Assembly (NCBI RefSeq): GCF_947492965.1
Contig: NZ_CANLOZ010000004.1
Span: forward strand, 310,001-374,000
Length of the DNA: 64,000 bases
From: an uncultured Aquimarina sp.
GTDB taxonomy: Bacteria; Bacteroidota; Bacteroidia; Flavobacteriales; Flavobacteriaceae
Direction: 5' to 3'
The first letter of the stretch is position 1, and every line of letters begins with the position of its first letter. Shown piece after piece: positions 8,697-25,533 of this stretch. The translations under genes and the position numbers were made by a program. Under the pieces are notes generated by a model. The model was not told the origin of the DNA, made no database searches, and saw only the letters and a list, made by a program, of their open reading frames with translations.

Positions 8697-9875
8697 CTAG
8701 TGACCGTGACCGTCATCTTTAGAATGAGCTTGAGGAGCTTCAGTTTTATCTACAATGCTTTCTATTTCAAGTTCAAAAATTAAATCTGTATTAGGAGGGA
8801 TTGGAGCTCTTCCTCTTTCTCCGTATCCTAAATGAGAAGGAATAAATATTACTGCTCTATCTCCAACTTTCATTTGTTGAACACCTTCTTTGAAACCGGC
8901 GATCATTTGAGCTTCGGGAGAATAAGGCATTTCTATAGGAGCATATCCCATAGGGTGTTGTGCTCTACGACTCTTTGGGTCATATGTTCCCATTTCTTTG
9001 TCTATATCAATCATATTAGTATCAAATACCCTTCCGTCTGTAAAGAAACCAGCGTAATATAATTTTACAACGTCTGTTGGTTTTGGTTGAACACCATCAC
9101 CTTCTTTTAAAAACAATATTTCTAAACCACTTTCTAATTTAGTTGCTTTCTCCTTTAATCCCTCGTATTTCGCAGCAGCTTTTTTACTATTTTCTTTGAT
9201 CAAACGTTCTTTTGCTAATTTTTCTTCTTCTAGCACTTTCAGTTTGTCTTCGAGTTCTGCCTTTGTATCAAATGCTTTTGCATCTTTACCTTTTCTGATG
9301 ATATTAACTTGTTCCATTCTTACTTCAGAAACAGGTTTGTCTCCAGGTCTTTTTGTTTCTACAACCCCAATGCTATCTACGATATCTTGTCCTGAAACGA
9401 TTTCTCCAAAAACGGTGTGTTTTCCATTTAACCAAGGAGTTTCTTTTAATGTAATAAAAAATTGACTTCCGTTGGTAGCAGGGCCAGAGTTGGCCATCGA
9501 TAAGATTCCTTTAGACTTATGTGTTAAAGAATCTACGATCTCATCTGGGAATTTATATCCTGGATCACCAGTACCTGTTCCTAGTGGATCTCCTGTTTGG
9601 ATCATGAAATCTTTAATCACTCTGTGGAAAATGATTCCGTTGTAATATTTTTTTCCTTTGTAAAGGCTATCTACCATAGTATTGGTTCCTTCTGCAAGGG
9701 ATACAAAATTAGCTACTGTCATTGGCGTAGCATCGTAGTATAATTTTGCAACGGCTGTACCTTTATTTGTTATGATTTCTGCATAGATACCATCCCCAAG
9801 TTCTGGATATTTTTCTTTGCAACTAGTTAGAGTTAAAGCGACAATCGCTAAAAATAAAAGACTTAATTTTTTCAT
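8697..9875 (-). CDS. Lipoprotein PPIase: cyclophilin-FKBP fusion
   Basis: 392-residue lipoprotein (lipobox ending LTSC, Cys19) with two different prolyl-isomerase domains. Residues ~30-195 form a cyclophilin domain (FHRVIKDFMIQTGDP, GSQFFITLKETPWLNGKHTVFGEI). A charged helical linker (~200-250) follows. Residues ~255-378 form an FKBP domain (VKLYYAGFFTDGRVFD, GFKEGVQQMKVGDRAVIFIP, LGYGERG, IPPNTDLIFELEI). The tail is His-rich (DDGHGH). It presumably folds envelope proteins in the periplasm. It is 15 bp downstream of gldI and the last gene of the DHH phosphoesterase-gldI-PPIase operon, so the operon carries three PPIase domains. Confidence 0.9.
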   Translation of the reverse strand: MKKLSLLFLAIVALTLTSCKEKYPELGDGIYAEIITNKGTAVAKLYYDATPMTVANFVSLAEGTNTMVDSLYKGKKYYNGIIFHRVIKDFMIQTGDPLGTGTGDPGYKFPDEIVDSLTHKSKGILSMANSGPATNGSQFFITLKETPWLNGKHTVFGEIVSGQDIVDSIGVVETKRPGDKPVSEVRMEQVNIIRKGKDAKAFDTKAELEDKLKVLEEEKLAKERLIKENSKKAAAKYEGLKEKATKLESGLEILFLKEGDGVQPKPTDVVKLYYAGFFTDGRVFDTNMIDIDKEMGTYDPKSRRAQHPMGYAPIEMPYSPEAQMIAGFKEGVQQMKVGDRAVIFIPSHLGYGERGRAPIPPNTDLIFELEIESIVDKTEAPQAHSKDDGHGH

Positions 9876-19961: not shown

Positions 19962-19994
19962 AAAAAACGTTCTATTTATTAATTACCCTACCCC
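19962..19994 (-). promoter_or_regulatory. Putative ECF-sigma promoter of the fecR-receptor operon
   Basis: On the minus strand, GGGGTAGGGTA (19994 to 19984), a 14-nt spacer and CGTTTTTT (19969 to 19962). The two boxes and the exact 14-nt spacing are shared with three lipoprotein genes nearby. It lies 18 bp upstream of the fecR ATG. The CGT in the downstream box fits ECF-type -10 elements. Confidence 0.72.
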
Positions 19995-20040
19995 TTGCTA
20001 TTAATTTTTTTAATTTTTAACAATTTACCTCATTTATAAT

Positions 20041-20574
20041 TTAGATGTCACCAATCTTTTTTCTTAAACTTAATAAAGCTTTGTGCATTAATTTTTCAAT
20101 AGCCTTAACGGAAACATTAGATAACTCAGCAATTTCTCTATAAGTTTTTTTATCAATTCTATTTAAAAGGAAAACTTCTCTTTGTCTTTCTGGTAAATCA
20201 GCAATAGCATTCTTCAGTTTCTCCATATATTCCTTTTCTAACATCACAAATTCCGGAGACTCATTAGTAACATCAGTTTTACGCTGAGTTATATAATTCT
20301 GATGTTTAAACTTTACTTGTTGATGCCTAGCAATACTAATTCCCAGGTTGGTGGCTACAGTATAAACATAACTTTTTGCTTTGTCTAAAGGTACTTTAGC
20401 ACAATTGTTCCATAATTTAATAAAAGCATCTTGAACAATATCTTCTGCTTGATCTAAATCACCAAACTTATAATACAGATAACTTCTCAAAAGTTTTGCA
20501 TGACTTTTGAAAAAATGATCAAAGGCTTGTTCGTCACAAGTAGAGTTTTTACTATCAGACATTTGGGGATTCAT
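20041..20574 (-). CDS. ECF RNA polymerase sigma factor (FecI-like)
   Basis: 177-residue group IV sigma factor. Region 2 spans ~18-85 (FDHFFKSHAKLLRSYLYYKFGDLDQAEDIVQDAFIKLW, split by motif as usual) and region 4 spans ~115-172 (LPERQREVFLLNRIDKKTYREIAE, then the helix-turn-helix VSVKAIEKLMHKALLSLRKK). There are no extra domains. It sits 96 bp upstream of fecR on the same strand. The classic model is that the STN receptor signals through FecR to release this factor. A TAGTTTTG box lies only 8 nt before the ATG used here, so the in-frame ATG at 20562 (MSDSKNS) is a possible true start. Confidence 0.92.
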   Translation of the reverse strand: MNPQMSDSKNSTCDEQAFDHFFKSHAKLLRSYLYYKFGDLDQAEDIVQDAFIKLWNNCAKVPLDKAKSYVYTVATNLGISIARHQQVKFKHQNYITQRKTDVTNESPEFVMLEKEYMEKLKNAIADLPERQREVFLLNRIDKKTYREIAELSNVSVKAIEKLMHKALLSLRKKIGDI

Positions 20575-20581
20575 TTGTTGT

Positions 20582-20608
20582 CAAAACTAGATTTTTTTCT
20601 GGTATCAA
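20582..20608 (-). promoter_or_regulatory. Possible housekeeping promoter of the ECF sigma gene
   Basis: TAGTTTTG (20589 to 20582, minus strand) matches TAnnTTTG. A TTG at 20608-20606 is 16 nt upstream, shorter than the usual 19. It differs clearly from the ECF-type motif, so the sigma gene itself may be constitutively expressed. Confidence 0.4.
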
Positions 20609-20640
20609 AAAAAAGAAATTTTAAAAAAAATAAAAAAAGA

Positions 20641-20674
20641 GGGGTGGGGTAGTTTTAACATTAGGCGTTTTACT
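20641..20674 (+). promoter_or_regulatory. Putative ECF-sigma promoter of lipoprotein gene 1
   Basis: GGGGTGGGGTA (20641-20651), 14-nt spacer, CGTTTTACT (20666-20674). It lies 57 bp before the start codon. It shares both boxes and the exact spacing with the fecR promoter and with those of the two following lipoprotein genes. Confidence 0.72.
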
Positions 20675-20731
20675 AGTGTTATAACAAACATCTCAATTGA
20701 GCATAACTTATTATTTACTTAAAAAATTAAC

Positions 20732-22183
20732 ATGAAAAATCTTAGAATTTTTAGCTTACTTATGTTTGGGCTTATGATTGCCTTTTCTTCTTGTGAACAA
20801 GAAGATGATAATCAAAACACTGAATGTCCTCAGTTATCTTTTGGACAGGATGGGAAAAAATTATTTGCTGATTTTGAAGGAATTGAAGATCTTGATACAT
20901 ACGAATGGTTTGTTGATGGAGAATTGGTAGAGACCGAAAGTCAGCAGAATGAAAGAGATAATACCTTAGACCTTTCTTCTTATAATCCTGGTACTTATAA
21001 TGTTTGTATCAAAGCAGAAACACCAGATTGTCCTGAAGGAACGGAATTTTGTAGAGAAATTACAATTGAAGAAGAGATGGATGGATGTCCAGATCTAAAA
21101 TTTACTAGAGATGGAGAGTATTTATTTGCAGATTTTGAAGGAATAGACACTTTAGAGTTTTATGCATGGAAGGTGACAGGTGAAAATCTAGAAAACGGTG
21201 AGATCATCGAAAACGAAGGAACAAGTAATCAAGGCGATAATAAGTTCTCTTTAGAAAATTTAGAAGAAGGAACTTATACAGTATGTTTAATTTCAGAAAG
21301 TCCTACTTGTACAAGCACAGAATATTGCGAGGAGATCACAATAGAAAGTGATGGAGATGGACAAGGATCATGCCCTGATCTAACTTTAAGTTCAGAAGGA
21401 AGTATCGTAGTTGCTTCTATATCAGGAACAGATGATATAGAATTATTTAATTGGTTTGTTAATAATGAGCCTTTAGCAGCAGAAGATCTTCAAATCCAAG
21501 GAACTACAATTACTTTAGATCTTAGTGATTACAATCCAGGTTCTTATGAAGTATGTGTAAAGTTTGAATCTAATGATTGTGCTCAGGGAATCGAAGCATG
21601 CGTGTCAGCTCAAGTAACAGATGATAATAATGGCGGTGGAGATGATGGCTGTCCTGACCTTTCTTTTATAGAAGAAGGACCATTTATGTTTGCAAGCTTT
21701 GCAGGAATAGATCAATTAGCGGTATATGAATGGTTTGTAGATGGAGTATTGGTAGAAACAGAGGATCTACAAAGTCAAGATAGAGATGATAAACTTGACT
21801 TGTCTTCATACAATCCAGGTACTTACAGAGTTTGTATCAAAGCAGAAACAAATGACTGTCCTAACGGAACAGAGTTCTGTAGAGATGTTGTAATTCCAGA
21901 GCCTCAGCCTGTAGATTGTACTATTTTTAAATTAGAATATGTGACAACAAATTCTGCAGAATTTGTTAATGCAAAAGGAGTAATTTTATTTGGTTTAGAT
22001 GATAACTCTGTGGTTTGGGAAATTGATGGTAATCAAGTTACACCAACTACTGCTACAGGACATTTCTTAATACTTCAAGATCATCTTCAGCAGCCAGGAA
22101 GATATGAGATTTGTTATAAAGCAGAATCTTCTGAATGTGGAAGCTTACAAGAATGTATTGAGATTGATTTTCAGGGGCTTTAA
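20732..22183 (+). CDS. Surface lipoprotein with five Cys-rich PKD-like repeats (1)
   Basis: 483-residue lipoprotein (signal ending AFSSC, Cys21, followed by acidic EQEDDN, which resembles Bacteroidota surface-export signals). The mature part is five ~90-residue repeats. Each begins C-P-x-L, has a central W-x-V/I-D/N-G-E strand and ends G-T/S-Y-x-V-C-I-K-A-E-T-x-D-C-P-x-G-T-E-F-C. Repeats 1-4 start near TECPQLSF, DGCPDLKF, GSCPDLTL and DGCPDLSF; the fifth (VDCTIFKLEY) is divergent. Four conserved cysteines per repeat suggest two disulfides in each domain. The fold looks PKD/Ig-like. No enzymatic motif is seen; a surface binding or adhesive role is inference. Transcribed from its own ECF-type promoter and closed by a terminator. 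Confidence 0.8.
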   Translation: MKNLRIFSLLMFGLMIAFSSCEQEDDNQNTECPQLSFGQDGKKLFADFEGIEDLDTYEWFVDGELVETESQQNERDNTLDLSSYNPGTYNVCIKAETPDCPEGTEFCREITIEEEMDGCPDLKFTRDGEYLFADFEGIDTLEFYAWKVTGENLENGEIIENEGTSNQGDNKFSLENLEEGTYTVCLISESPTCTSTEYCEEITIESDGDGQGSCPDLTLSSEGSIVVASISGTDDIELFNWFVNNEPLAAEDLQIQGTTITLDLSDYNPGSYEVCVKFESNDCAQGIEACVSAQVTDDNNGGGDDGCPDLSFIEEGPFMFASFAGIDQLAVYEWFVDGVLVETEDLQSQDRDDKLDLSSYNPGTYRVCIKAETNDCPNGTEFCRDVVIPEPQPVDCTIFKLEYVTTNSAEFVNAKGVILFGLDDNSVVWEIDGNQVTPTTATGHFLILQDHLQQPGRYEICYKAESSECGSLQECIEIDFQGL

Positions 22184-22247
22184 TTCATATGCGAAGTGAT
22201 GGTTTATTAAGTTCAGTCAGTTGAATAAATAATCACTTATTTGTAGG

Positions 22248-22277
22248 AAGAGACCGTTTTTACGGTCTCTTTTTTTT
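22248..22277 (+). terminator. Intrinsic terminator after lipoprotein gene 1
   Basis: A 9-bp perfect stem AAGAGACCG/CGGTCTCTT (22248-22256 with 22263-22271), 6-nt loop, then a run of T. It separates lipoprotein gene 1 from the promoter of gene 2. Confidence 0.88.
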
Positions 22278-22365
22278 CGTAGATACTTTTAACATCCAAT
22301 ATTAATAGGGCTTTAGGATGGTTTTTAAGATTTTCATGACAAATTTTTAACTTTTTTTAAAGTAA

Positions 22366-22399
22366 GGGGTAGGGTATTGGTTTTGTACTGCGTTTCATT
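22366..22399 (+). promoter_or_regulatory. Putative ECF-sigma promoter of lipoprotein gene 2
   Basis: GGGGTAGGGTA (22366-22376), 14-nt spacer, CGTTTCATT (22391-22399), 61 bp before the start codon. The upstream box is identical to that of the fecR promoter. Confidence 0.72.
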
Positions 22400-22460
22400 A
22401 TTGTAAAGCAAGTAAAAGCTTCTAAATAATTAATATAAAATAACCCCTAAAATTACAACA

Positions 22461-23885
22461 ATGAAAAAACTTAGTATTTGGTGTGTAATGATTTTTACAC
22501 TACTTGTGGGATTTACCTCTTGTGAAGAAATTGAAGAATTAGAAAATTGTCCAGATGTAACAATTAATGTAGATAATGTTGGTGGCAGTGCTGTTTATCG
22601 CTTTGCCGCACAATTAGATGGAATCCAGGATGTAGAGCTTACTTGGTCTATCGATGGAGAAGATGTAGCAAGTGGAAACTTAGATGATATAGCAAGTCAG
22701 ATTTTTGAATATCAGTTTGAAGAAGGAACATATACTGTTTGTGTAAGAGTAGCTAGTGATGCTTGTCCTATCGAGGTTTGTAAAGAGATTGAGGTAGACA
22801 TAGATGAAACAAACCCTTGTCCGGATTTATTCTTCGAAACAAGACAATTGGATAGACCTAATAGCTATAAGTTTATAGCGGATTTCCCTGGTATTGAAGA
22901 AACTCGTTTCGAATGGTTTATCAATGGAGAAGTAGTAGTAACAGATGGTCAAAATGCAGATAACTATCTATTCTGGGATTTTGAGGAAGTTGGAACTTAT
23001 GAAGTATGTATCAAAACAGAAACGCCAGATTGTCCAGAAGGAACTTCCTATTGTAAAGTAATTGAGGTTCAGGAAGTAGATGAAAGATGTCCAGAACTGT
23101 TCTTCATTGCAGAGCAAGATGGAGATAATCCAGCATATTATTTTCAAGTAGAGTTTGAAGGAGCTGATCAGATTGAATGGTTGGGTTGGTATATCAATGG
23201 AGAATTTGTAGAAGATTCTAATAATGGAGATAATAATAGATTCTATTACCAATTTGCACCAGGAAGATATGAAGTATGTTTAAAAACAGAAACTCCAGAA
23301 TGTCCACAAGGAACATCATATTGTAAAGTTATTGAAATTGAAGGTGATGCTGTTTGCCCAGAGTTGTTTTTCGAAGCCGAACAAGATGGAGATAATCCTG
23401 CATACTATTTCTATCCAGGAGCATTTGACGGAATAGAAGAGTATCCAATAAGTTGGTCGGTTAATAATGAGTTTGTTGGTACAACTCAGAGTCATGATGA
23501 ACCATTTTACTATCAATTTGCTCCAGGAAGTTATGAGGTTTGTGCGGCAGTAGAAACGCCAAATTGCCCACAAGGAGTAACATTCTGTAAAGTGATCGAA
23601 ATAGAAGAAACTGGAACCAGCTGCCCAAATTTATTTTTCACAGTAGATCAAGAAGGAGATACACCTGGATATAATTTTAGAGCAGAGTTCGAAGGAATGA
23701 GTGATATTTCATACGAATGGACTATCAACGGAGATGTTGTAGATAGAGAGATTGTAGATAGTAATGAAAGAGATAATTATTTATACTACCAATTTGGATC
23801 AGGAACATACGAGATATGTATTATAGCAGAAACTCCAGATTGTCCAAACGGAACTATATTTTGTAAAACAATCGTCATAGAATAG
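22461..23885 (+). CDS. Surface lipoprotein with five Cys-rich PKD-like repeats (2)
   Basis: 474-residue lipoprotein (signal ending GFTSC, Cys21, followed by acidic EEIEELEN), paralogous to the gene before it. Five repeats start near ENCPDVTI, NPCPDLFF, ERCPELFF, AVCPELFF and TSCPNLFF. Most have a buried-aromatic centre (EWFINGE, GWYINGE, SWSVNNE, EWTINGD) and end in YEVCIKTETPDCPEGTSYC-like strings. Compared with paralogue 1, its inserts are rich in Asp/Asn (NNGDNNRFYYQF). Neighbouring repeats are also similar at DNA level, giving scope for unequal recombination. It has its own ECF-type promoter and terminator. Extracellular ligand unknown; a structural or adhesive function is inference. Confidence 0.8.
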   Translation: MKKLSIWCVMIFTLLVGFTSCEEIEELENCPDVTINVDNVGGSAVYRFAAQLDGIQDVELTWSIDGEDVASGNLDDIASQIFEYQFEEGTYTVCVRVASDACPIEVCKEIEVDIDETNPCPDLFFETRQLDRPNSYKFIADFPGIEETRFEWFINGEVVVTDGQNADNYLFWDFEEVGTYEVCIKTETPDCPEGTSYCKVIEVQEVDERCPELFFIAEQDGDNPAYYFQVEFEGADQIEWLGWYINGEFVEDSNNGDNNRFYYQFAPGRYEVCLKTETPECPQGTSYCKVIEIEGDAVCPELFFEAEQDGDNPAYYFYPGAFDGIEEYPISWSVNNEFVGTTQSHDEPFYYQFAPGSYEVCAAVETPNCPQGVTFCKVIEIEETGTSCPNLFFTVDQEGDTPGYNFRAEFEGMSDISYEWTINGDVVDREIVDSNERDNYLYYQFGSGTYEICIIAETPDCPNGTIFCKTIVIE

Positions 23886-23916
23886 TTAAGTCAGTTAGGT
23901 TGGATTAATTAGGTTG

Positions 23917-23953
23917 ATTCCCTGGAAGTAAGATCATTCTTCCAGGGAATTTT
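23917..23953 (+). terminator. Intrinsic terminator after lipoprotein gene 2
   Basis: A perfect 12-bp stem ATTCCCTGGAAG/CTTCCAGGGAAT (23917-23928 with 23939-23950), 10-nt loop, then TTT. The T-tail is short, but the stem is strong and GC-rich for this genome. Confidence 0.75.
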
Positions 23954-24016
23954 GTATATACCAACCAGATGTGTTAGATTGTGAATCCAATGAACTAAAT
24001 AATTTTTATTTAAATT

Positions 24017-24050
24017 GAGGTAGGGTATACTGATTTTCAGGCGTTTTACT
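24017..24050 (+). promoter_or_regulatory. Putative ECF-sigma promoter of lipoprotein gene 3
   Basis: GAGGTAGGGTA (24017-24027), 14-nt spacer, CGTTTTACT (24042-24050). It lies only 19 bp before the TTG start used here, so the predicted leader is very short, like that of fecR. Confidence 0.7.
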
Positions 24051-24069: not shown

Positions 24070-25533
24070 TTGAGAAAAATTCATACATATAGTTTAAGGT
24101 TATTACTAATAAGCTTCGCTGTATTGTTATCAGGATGTGTAAATGATGATTCTTTTTTTCCTGAAGAAAACAATAACAACGTAGTATCCAGTACTTCCTT
24201 GGTTACGGTGCTTACTAATTTTGGTTCCGACAATTCGTTTATATCAGAAAATGAACAGTGTTTCCGATTTGTCTATCCTATTACGCTGGGTTATAATACG
24301 GATTCAACTATCACCATAGATAGTTATGACGGATTAGTGGATGTAATTGCTAGCCAGGGACCAAATTTTAATATAACTGGTTTACAATTTCCTGTTTCTA
24401 TTGTGTTCAAAAATACAGATGTAACCGTTAGTTTAAGTAATGAAGCTTCACTGTTTAATGTTTTGTCAGAATGTGAGTTTGATACTGTAAGAGATGATTT
24501 TGACCAGTTTTTTAATAGTTGTTTCAAGTTTGATTATCCAATCACAATGTTTGATAACGGAGGTGTTGAAATAGAAATATCTTCTGATGAAGCTTTTCAA
24601 ACATTTTATCAAAGTCAAGGAGCTCTATATCAACCTAATTTCAAATTTCCTATTACTCTTTTAGTAGGAGCTAATTTAGAAAGTACCACTATTGATACGT
24701 ATTTTGGCTATTATAGAATTATTAGCACTTGTGAAACTCGTTGTCCTCAATTAGATTTCACATCAGAACTTACAGATACATTTAATCTAGGCTATAGATT
24801 TGAAGCAAGTTTTCCTGATATAGAAACGATAGGTACCTATGAATGGTTTATAGATGGACAATTTATAGAGATAGATGGACCAAATGTTCAGGGCGATAAT
24901 CTCTTATTACGAGATTTTGATGGTCCAGGTACTTATGTCGTTTGTATTAAAGCAGAAACACCAGAATGTCCAGAAGGAATTGAGATTTGTAAAAATATAG
25001 AAGTCGCTGAGTTTTGCCCGGATTTAAATTTTAGTTTTGAACAAGAGCAAGGTACATTACAATATAATTTCACCGCTAGTTTTACAGGTATCGAAGAGTT
25101 AACTTACGAATGGTTTGTAGACAATGAAGTAGCGGAACAAGATGGCGGTGGTAATGGAGATAATATTTTTGTTACAGAATTAACTCCAGGAGTACATCAG
25201 GTATGCATAAAAACCACTACACCATCATGCCCAAATGGCGCGGAGGAATGTAGGGAAATTCTTGTGGATCCAATTTGTCCTAATTTATTTTTTAGTTTCG
25301 AACAAGAAGGGAATACCACTGGTTATAATTTTACTGCGGATTTTCAGGATATTGGGACCGTTAATTATCAATGGGAAATCGATGGTGAAATAATAGAACA
25401 AGACGGAGGTCCAACAGGTGACAATATATTCTTCTTTCAATTTGATCCTGGAACATATGTCGTATGTATTAGAGCTGAAACGGAAACTTGCCCTCAAGGA
25501 ACACAATTCTGTGAAGAAATAGTAGTCCAGTAA
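24070..25533 (+). CDS. Surface lipoprotein with duplicated N-terminal domain and three PKD-like repeats (3)
   Basis: 487-residue lipoprotein whose only sensible start is TTG: the signal peptide MRKIHTYSLRLLLISFAVLL ends in a SGC lipobox (Cys23), and no in-frame ATG or GTG lies between it and the promoter. Residues ~65-220 hold two copies of a module starting CFRFVYPITL and CFKFDYPITM and followed by D/E-x-x-I-x-I...QG...FPI/VxLL/IV. Three Cys-rich PKD-like repeats then follow, starting TRCPQLDF, EFCPDLNF and PICPNLFF and ending in AETPECPEGIEIC-like strings. It is thus a third paralogue with a new head. The N-terminal module resembles one I associate with other flavobacterial lipoproteins, but its function is unknown to me. 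Confidence 0.78.
   Translation: MRKIHTYSLRLLLISFAVLLSGCVNDDSFFPEENNNNVVSSTSLVTVLTNFGSDNSFISENEQCFRFVYPITLGYNTDSTITIDSYDGLVDVIASQGPNFNITGLQFPVSIVFKNTDVTVSLSNEASLFNVLSECEFDTVRDDFDQFFNSCFKFDYPITMFDNGGVEIEISSDEAFQTFYQSQGALYQPNFKFPITLLVGANLESTTIDTYFGYYRIISTCETRCPQLDFTSELTDTFNLGYRFEASFPDIETIGTYEWFIDGQFIEIDGPNVQGDNLLLRDFDGPGTYVVCIKAETPECPEGIEICKNIEVAEFCPDLNFSFEQEQGTLQYNFTASFTGIEELTYEWFVDNEVAEQDGGGNGDNIFVTELTPGVHQVCIKTTTPSCPNGAEECREILVDPICPNLFFSFEQEGNTTGYNFTADFQDIGTVNYQWEIDGEIIEQDGGPTGDNIFFFQFDPGTYVVCIRAETETCPQGTQFCEEIVVQ

Follow-up and report, generated by a model that had tools for sequence, protein, structure and literature searches.

The gene cluster and its repeated boxes

A 64,000-nucleotide (nt) stretch of DNA from an uncultured Aquimarina sp. 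(contig NZ_CANLOZ010000004.1, positions 310,001-374,000; hereafter the window) carries genes for an extracytoplasmic function (ECF) sigma factor, a FecR-type sigma regulator and a TonB-dependent outer-membrane receptor, together with three lipoprotein-like genes. The first three lie on the minus strand in the order sigma (20574-20041), fecR (19944-19030) and receptor (19025-16473), with fecR 96 nt downstream of the sigma gene and the receptor gene starting 4 nt downstream of fecR; the lipoprotein-like genes are on the plus strand (lipoprotein 1, 20732-22183; lipoprotein 2, 22461-23885; lipoprotein 3, 24070-25533). The sigma factor, of 177 amino acids (aa) from the listed start, has ECF sigma regions 2 and 4, with matches to PF04542 and PF08281, and scores 125.8 bits against TIGR02985 (Sig70_bacteroi1), the cut-off of which is 126.4. 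Its relatives, most of which begin with MSD, suggest a start at 20562 (MSDSK..., 173 aa). The adjacent regulator (304 aa) contains a FecR domain (PF04773, 1.9e-19; PF16344, 2.4e-8). The receptor (850 aa) comprises an N-terminal FecR_C/STN-like signalling domain, a CarbopepD_reg_2 domain, a plug and a barrel (PF16344, 1.6e-7; PF13715, 4e-8; PF07715, 1.8e-9; PF00593, 1.7e-12), the PF16344 match being over its cut-off and the STN match (PF07660, 1.9e-4) under it. Among the named relatives found, the closest to it are from Aquimarina, with 88% identity to the A. litoralis protein.

In a pattern search, GRGGTRGGGTA-N14-CGTTTYW was found exactly four times in the window, against 0.00 expected from 100 dinucleotide shuffles. 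One match precedes fecR (19963-19994, minus strand; GGGGTAGGGTA, 14 nt, CGTTTTT), and the others precede, on the plus strand, lipoprotein 1 (20641-20672; GGGGTGGGGTA, 14 nt, CGTTTTA), lipoprotein 2 (22366-22397; GGGGTAGGGTA, 14 nt, CGTTTCA) and lipoprotein 3 (24017-24048; GAGGTAGGGTA, 14 nt, CGTTTTA). An earlier note on this DNA had claimed that the same two boxes stand 14 nt apart in front of these four genes, and this is borne out. It had also claimed that the motif is restricted to the cluster, which is true of the window but not of the genome: in 5.54 Mb there are five exact matches (the reversed pattern gives 0), the fifth lying at C3:636266-636297. When up to three mismatches are allowed across the whole genome, the 25 matches do not exceed the 27 of the reversed control, and the loose pattern is therefore no evidence by itself; GGTAGGGTA-N13-16-GTTWYA gives eight matches genome-wide against one for the control.

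The fifth box (L006:8269-8298) precedes a gene for a 429-aa protein with a type IX secretion tail. The note had proposed to check whether genome-wide matches at fixed spacing precede further lipoprotein genes; the outcome is this one additional match. The 429-aa protein has a match in nine of 12 chosen relatives, and in five of the six loci inspected (L265, L266, L270, L272 and L274) a box, with one mismatch tolerated in its 9-mer, lies beside the same 294-aa neighbour; no box was seen at the sixth, L267. The synteny of the site supports the remote gene as a probable fifth target of the regulon. Two of the five boxed loci encode the intact protein; in the other three the box persists with only a decayed gene remnant downstream.

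Conservation of the boxes and wiring of the sigma gene

Orthologous clusters from 16 Aquimarina records and the window make up 17 loci, the alignment of which omits a record from Cyclobacteriaceae (L132) and a distant fragment from Saprospiraceae. The upstream regions of 17 fecR, 12 lipoprotein 1, 16 lipoprotein 2 and 17 lipoprotein 3 genes were aligned, giving 62 promoters. The core GTRGGG-N16-CGTT is present in all 62 (17/17, 12/12, 16/16 and 17/17, respectively, window included) and the full GGTRGGGTA-N14-CGTT in 46. The mean majority fraction is 0.92-0.98 in the -35 box and 0.93-0.99 in the -10 box, compared with 0.52-0.75 in the spacer and 0.59-0.77 in the rest of the upstream region. At most fecR genes of this clade (W) the box lies 17-19 nt from the start codon, and in 52 genomes of the genus GGTRGGGTA-N14-16-GTTWYW has 276 matches against 29 for the reversed pattern. 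L128 and L134 each contain a pair of lipoprotein genes and, in addition to the box of fecR, a pair of boxes. The arrangement typical of an ECF promoter, two conserved boxes at a fixed spacing around a variable spacer, is thus found in the window, in its orthologues and, as described below, in other genera. At the level of sequence comparison, the boxes, their fixed spacing, their conservation and their covariation with the sigma factor are established. In the uncultured Cyclobacteriaceae record L132, a W-like box (8968-8997) lies before fecR and the receptor is 46% identical; no sigma match was found in the region retrieved.

The sigma gene itself appears to be wired differently. None of the 17 W-clade sigma genes carries the target box in the sense orientation within 250 nt upstream, and at the threshold used no own-clade box was found within 120 nt upstream of 61 sigma genes from seven clades. 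The earlier proposal of an autoregulated fecR-receptor operon with three outputs consequently needs dividing: fecR-receptor and the outputs stand as targets, and autoregulation of the sigma gene through the box falls because that gene has no sense box. Upstream of it lies TAGTTTTG (20582-20589, minus strand), a match to TAnnTTTG, the -7 box of the primary sigma factor of Bacteroidetes (PMC7366714). TAnnTTTG occurs within 110 nt upstream of the sigma gene in 17/17 loci (background 8%), at a similar distance in 15 and at other distances in L124 and L130. These data support expression of the sigma gene from a putative housekeeping-type promoter, outside its own regulon. Three systems outside the seven clades (L257, L229 and L193) have a box before sigma and before a divergent gene, which would make their sigma factors autoregulated, unlike that of the window; L217, also outside these clades, has a box-like site before sigma.

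The frame in other FecR-linked systems

The genome contains eight FecR matches, seven of them within sigma-fecR-receptor triplets, and six of the seven triplets have a variant of the box in the gap between sigma and fecR. The exception is the C3 triplet, where the box stands elsewhere, upstream of sigma as well as in front of two lipocalin-like genes. In the C3 clade the regulon appears to be dispersed: GTAGGGTR-N14-TGTTTTA precedes genes for lipocalin-like lipoproteins and for secreted proteins of about 200 aa (L071, L070:9110-9139, L076:9599-9628 and loci L187, L168, L169, L177 and L173).

For the genus, 100 of 158 FecR matches outside this genome, from 18 further genomes, were hand-picked among the matches listed, with short FecRs favoured; together with the genome's own and the orthologous-cluster loci they gave 97 systems of the same FecR class. 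The eight boxes that seeded the scan model all come from the genus, some of them from other genomes than this one, and the model was fixed before loci of other genera were fetched. In 58 of 92 non-repeated genus systems the box before fecR exceeds the 99th percentile of dinucleotide shuffles, with 0.9 expected; the seed systems are among these 92, so that the other genera provide the independent test. There, 40 regions from 28 genomes were hand-picked (short FecRs); five have no FecR open reading frame scoring at least 150, which leaves 35 systems from 25 genomes. L132 was left out of the scan. In the 35 systems, 26 fecR upstream regions pass the same percentile, with 0.4 expected. A spacing of 14 nt is the best of the 10-19 nt tested in both sets. 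Three further systems (L297, L299 and L314) show, by eye, a TCAGGA variant in the same frame.

Among FecRs of other classes (scores of 80-250 with the fec hidden Markov model), only 2/27 exceed the threshold, and the frame as modelled is therefore specific to its own FecR class. Four loci with FecRs of other classes (L208, L224, L234 and L245) have, by eye, GGGG(T), about 14-15 nt and CGTCTT before fecR, possibly a sister code. The trimmed W motif, searched family-wide in one genome per genus, occurs in six of 149 genomes, this one included, and other genera mostly use TGTT variants. The base before GTT varies by clade: CGTT in W, TGTT in most others and GGTT in one. The earlier note's description of a CGT-containing -10 fits the W clade (62/62 CGTT) and not most of the others, and the CGT -10 is supported as a W-clade variant of a probable wider FecR-linked ECF frame consisting of a 9-mer, 14 nt and nGTT.

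The letters within this frame tend to follow the sigma factor. Position weight matrices (PWMs) were built from the fecR boxes of seven clades and used to scan the upstream regions of non-fecR genes in 61 of the 97 systems; four repeated genomes, L233, L242, L183, L166, two systems without sigma, single-member clusters and clusters without a box in the gap were left out. The own-clade PWM was best in 55/61 loci (W 23/24, T7a 3/3, T7b 8/8, FAS 10/10, R359 6/6, HYR 3/4 and VPS 2/6), whereas with permuted labels the average was 13.8 loci and none of the 10,000 permutations gave more than 25. This clade-grouped test replaced an ungrouped comparison of own with foreign loci, which was uninformative because the foreign loci included orthologues.

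Particular residues were compared in 95 systems; the boxes of L297, L299 and L314 were added manually and five rows were taken out manually. Tyrosine at the position of H164 of the window's sigma factor, in the sigma-4 helix, pairs with GGA at -35: 14 GGA to one GGG in the genus, against one GGA to 51 GGG without tyrosine, and 11 GGA to no GGG in other genera, against no GGA to 17 GGG. C precedes GTT in W, where the sigma factor has Thr75/Ser80, and G precedes it in T7a (Thr75/Asn80); the others, mostly with Asn75 and Asn80, have T there.

The genes that carry the boxes also have a common character. Lipobox calls were made with a crude regular expression, and of 44 genes with an own-clade box, fecR and sigma aside, 38 are lipoprotein-like and a lipobox or signal-like start is seen in 43; the corresponding counts for the 443 other genes of the same loci are 138 and 333. 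The outputs, typed from the members in this genome, differ by clade: Ig/PKD-like repeat lipoproteins (immunoglobulin, Ig) in W, a fasciclin lipoprotein in FAS and a 7TM-transglutaminase protein beside an ATP-grasp gene in T7a. In the C2 system the box is carried by the gene of a PAP2-domain protein.

We consider it slightly better than an even bet that the FecR-linked ECF sigma factors of Flavobacteriaceae share one frame in which a few residues set the letters, giving insulated channels whose code may be read from the sigma-fecR gap. Under this proposal, V156 and H164 of the sigma-4 helix, as opposed to Arg/Thr and Tyr, might choose between GGGT and GGA at -35, T75 and S80 of sigma-2 might choose the base before GTT, and each channel, largely insulated from the others, would produce a receptor and a FecR of its own, together with lipoproteins or secreted proteins dedicated to it. 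The specificity residues stay hypothetical because many other columns track the clades equally well.

Signalling model, alternatives and related systems

Comparison of these sequences makes it highly probable, at about 0.88 in our estimate, that the four boxes together serve as promoters of a single ECF sigma regulon belonging to a FecI/FecR-type surface signalling system. The earlier supposition that the neighbouring sigma factor uses the motif gains support from the conserved boxes around variable spacers, from the clade concordance and from a -35 that tracks the sigma-4 helix. As to transcription start, sigma dependence, signal flow, ligand and surface location, we infer the following course of events. 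On the model of FecA-FecR-FecI (PMC9249621), the signal would begin with a ligand at the TonB-dependent receptor and pass via the N-terminal domain to FecR, which would release or license the sigma factor (20041-20574). RNA polymerase with this sigma factor would read GGTRGGGTA-N14-CGTTTYW before fecR-receptor, as feedback, and before the three Ig-like repeat surface lipoproteins, the remote type IX-secreted protein being an additional target. Because fecR and the receptor lie behind a box, activation would be expected to increase sensor and restraint alike, and a sigma level fixed by housekeeping transcription would make the system a bounded switch.

The boxes might instead be ECF promoters read by another sigma factor or by several related ones, with no private regulon. 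The W and T7a/T7b clades have GGTAGGGTA in common, their main difference being in the -10, and the T7a PWM also gives fairly high scores at W loci (mean z 3.5 versus 5.5); nevertheless, with the own-clade PWM prevailing in 23 of 24 W loci and CGTT kept in every W promoter examined, we hold this to be unlikely. A role as operators of an ordinary transcription factor, or as another DNA or RNA element to which the sigma gene is only incidentally adjacent, is more improbable still: the G-rich half does differ from the classical ECF -35, GGAAC, but the fixed spacing, the strand polarity towards the genes, the short distance to the start codon and the covariation with the sigma-4 helix all speak for promoters. 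Finally, the common repeats and tandem arrangement of the three lipoproteins could mean that functionless boxes were copied along with paralogous genes. We give this next to no credence, as fecR is not a paralogue and yet has the same box, the spacers have diverged and the box cores have not, and other clades likewise show boxes at fecR together with unrelated output genes.

Several observations weigh against the reading of the boxes as promoters of a single sigma regulon. The genome has 50 sigma-like matches, some of them partial, so that cross-recognition may occur. Of the 62 W-clade sites, 16 depart from the full 9-mer, and conservation is also high in the lipoprotein 1 leader itself, which has the highest rest-of-upstream value (0.77). 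In the genus, 34/92 fecR upstream regions have no box over the 99th percentile, some having one elsewhere, and the VPS clade failed the own-clade test. The clades were derived from sigma clustering, but the split of T7a from T7b and some trimming were made after the boxes had been seen. Moreover, the associations rest on about seven clades and not on 61 independent cases, because sigma clade, box and gene neighbourhood share their inheritance, and similar, clade-confounded mutual information is found for many sigma columns beyond the helix.

Bacteroidota have many ECF sigma factors, the promoters of which are largely unknown. The sigma factor of the window belongs to the same sequence family as the FecI-like ECF sigma factors of Bacteroidetes (TIGR02985 Sig70_bacteroi1, 0.6 bits under the cut-off), the groups of which are named ECF10/ECF240-type. 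The components resemble those of E. coli FecI-FecR-FecA, namely an ECF sigma factor, a FecR-domain regulator and a TonB-dependent receptor with an N-terminal signalling domain, and in E. coli too the sigma gene is not autoregulated (fecIR; PMC9249621). There, fecI and fecR are cotranscribed independently of FecI, whose single target promoter is that of fecA, whereas in the Aquimarina genome fecR and the receptor would form a sigma-driven operon with sigma separate, and the four further proposed targets encode surface or secreted proteins, not iron transport. The reading as an ECF sigma regulon is well supported, with the corrections given above, and we class the system as FecI/FecR-type surface signalling with unusual wiring and an apparently readable promoter code. 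The 2013 map of ECF promoters omitted the FecI-like groups ECF05-10, because FecI-like sigma factors do not autoregulate (PMC3817407); a promoter code for such factors is proposed here from the sigma-fecR gap.

Some flavobacterial and Bacteroides promoters show partial likeness. The putative ECF motif SM6, from transcription start site mapping in Flavobacterium psychrophilum, likewise has a conserved CGT at -10 and is attributed to an ECF sigma factor (PMC9723704). It differs in driving type IX secretion components and an ECF/anti-sigma pair, and several sigma factors may share it; the word FecR is absent from the main text of that paper. In B. thetaiotaomicron, TGTT lies near -10 at two ECF-linked promoters, as for SigW-1, although the motif search itself was not significant (PMC12596196), and PM2, a second motif, combines promoter elements at -10 and -30 (PMC7366714). 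SigW-1 and PM2 concern sulfatase and oxidative-stress genes, and the available passages of these papers contain no link to FecR (PMC12596196, PMC7366714). Within the available passages of open-licence PMC literature, PMC7406223 and PMC8999054 included, neither the motif nor a flavobacterial FecR-linked promoter code is described; the 2021 ECF reclassification may hold a predicted motif.

If the code holds, a large and little-known class of sigma factors would have a readable promoter code: the promoters of many FecI-like sigma factors could be read from the gap before fecR, yielding a list of target genes for each. It would also supply sigma-promoter pairs native to flavobacteria as candidates for orthogonal use, and a route to what surface sensors control, here mostly lipoproteins and secreted proteins and not only iron or sugar uptake.

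Lipoprotein 1 (483 aa) has cysteine-containing Ig/PKD-like repeats, read directly from the sequence, a Por_Secre_tail match over the cut-off (3.8e-14) and a PKD_3 match under it (0.037). Lipoprotein 2 (474 aa) has tandem Ig/fibronectin type III (FnIII)-like beta-sandwich repeats (PKD_3, 1.2e-6, over the cut-off), and lipoprotein 3 (487 aa) an N-terminal alpha/beta region followed by Ig-like repeats. The latter begins with TTG at 24070, where most orthologues show ATG at the aligned position (alignment of 17). Acidic residues after the lipid cysteine are a surface export signal, and on this basis the lipoproteins would be exposed at the surface. Structure models of lipoproteins 2 and 3 (mean predicted local distance difference test values of 70.9 and 84.6) predict tandem Ig/FnIII-like rods; fold searches of the PDB with the two returned only generic Ig/FnIII arrays at low template-modelling scores. 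No SusD match was found in the six cluster proteins or in the two genes beyond the receptor, and the cluster thus does not fit a SusCD polysaccharide utilisation locus. In Aquimarina muelleri (L129, 3233-7927), a SusC-like/SusD-like pair (SusD-like_2, 1.3e-116) takes the place of the missing lipoproteins 1 and 2.

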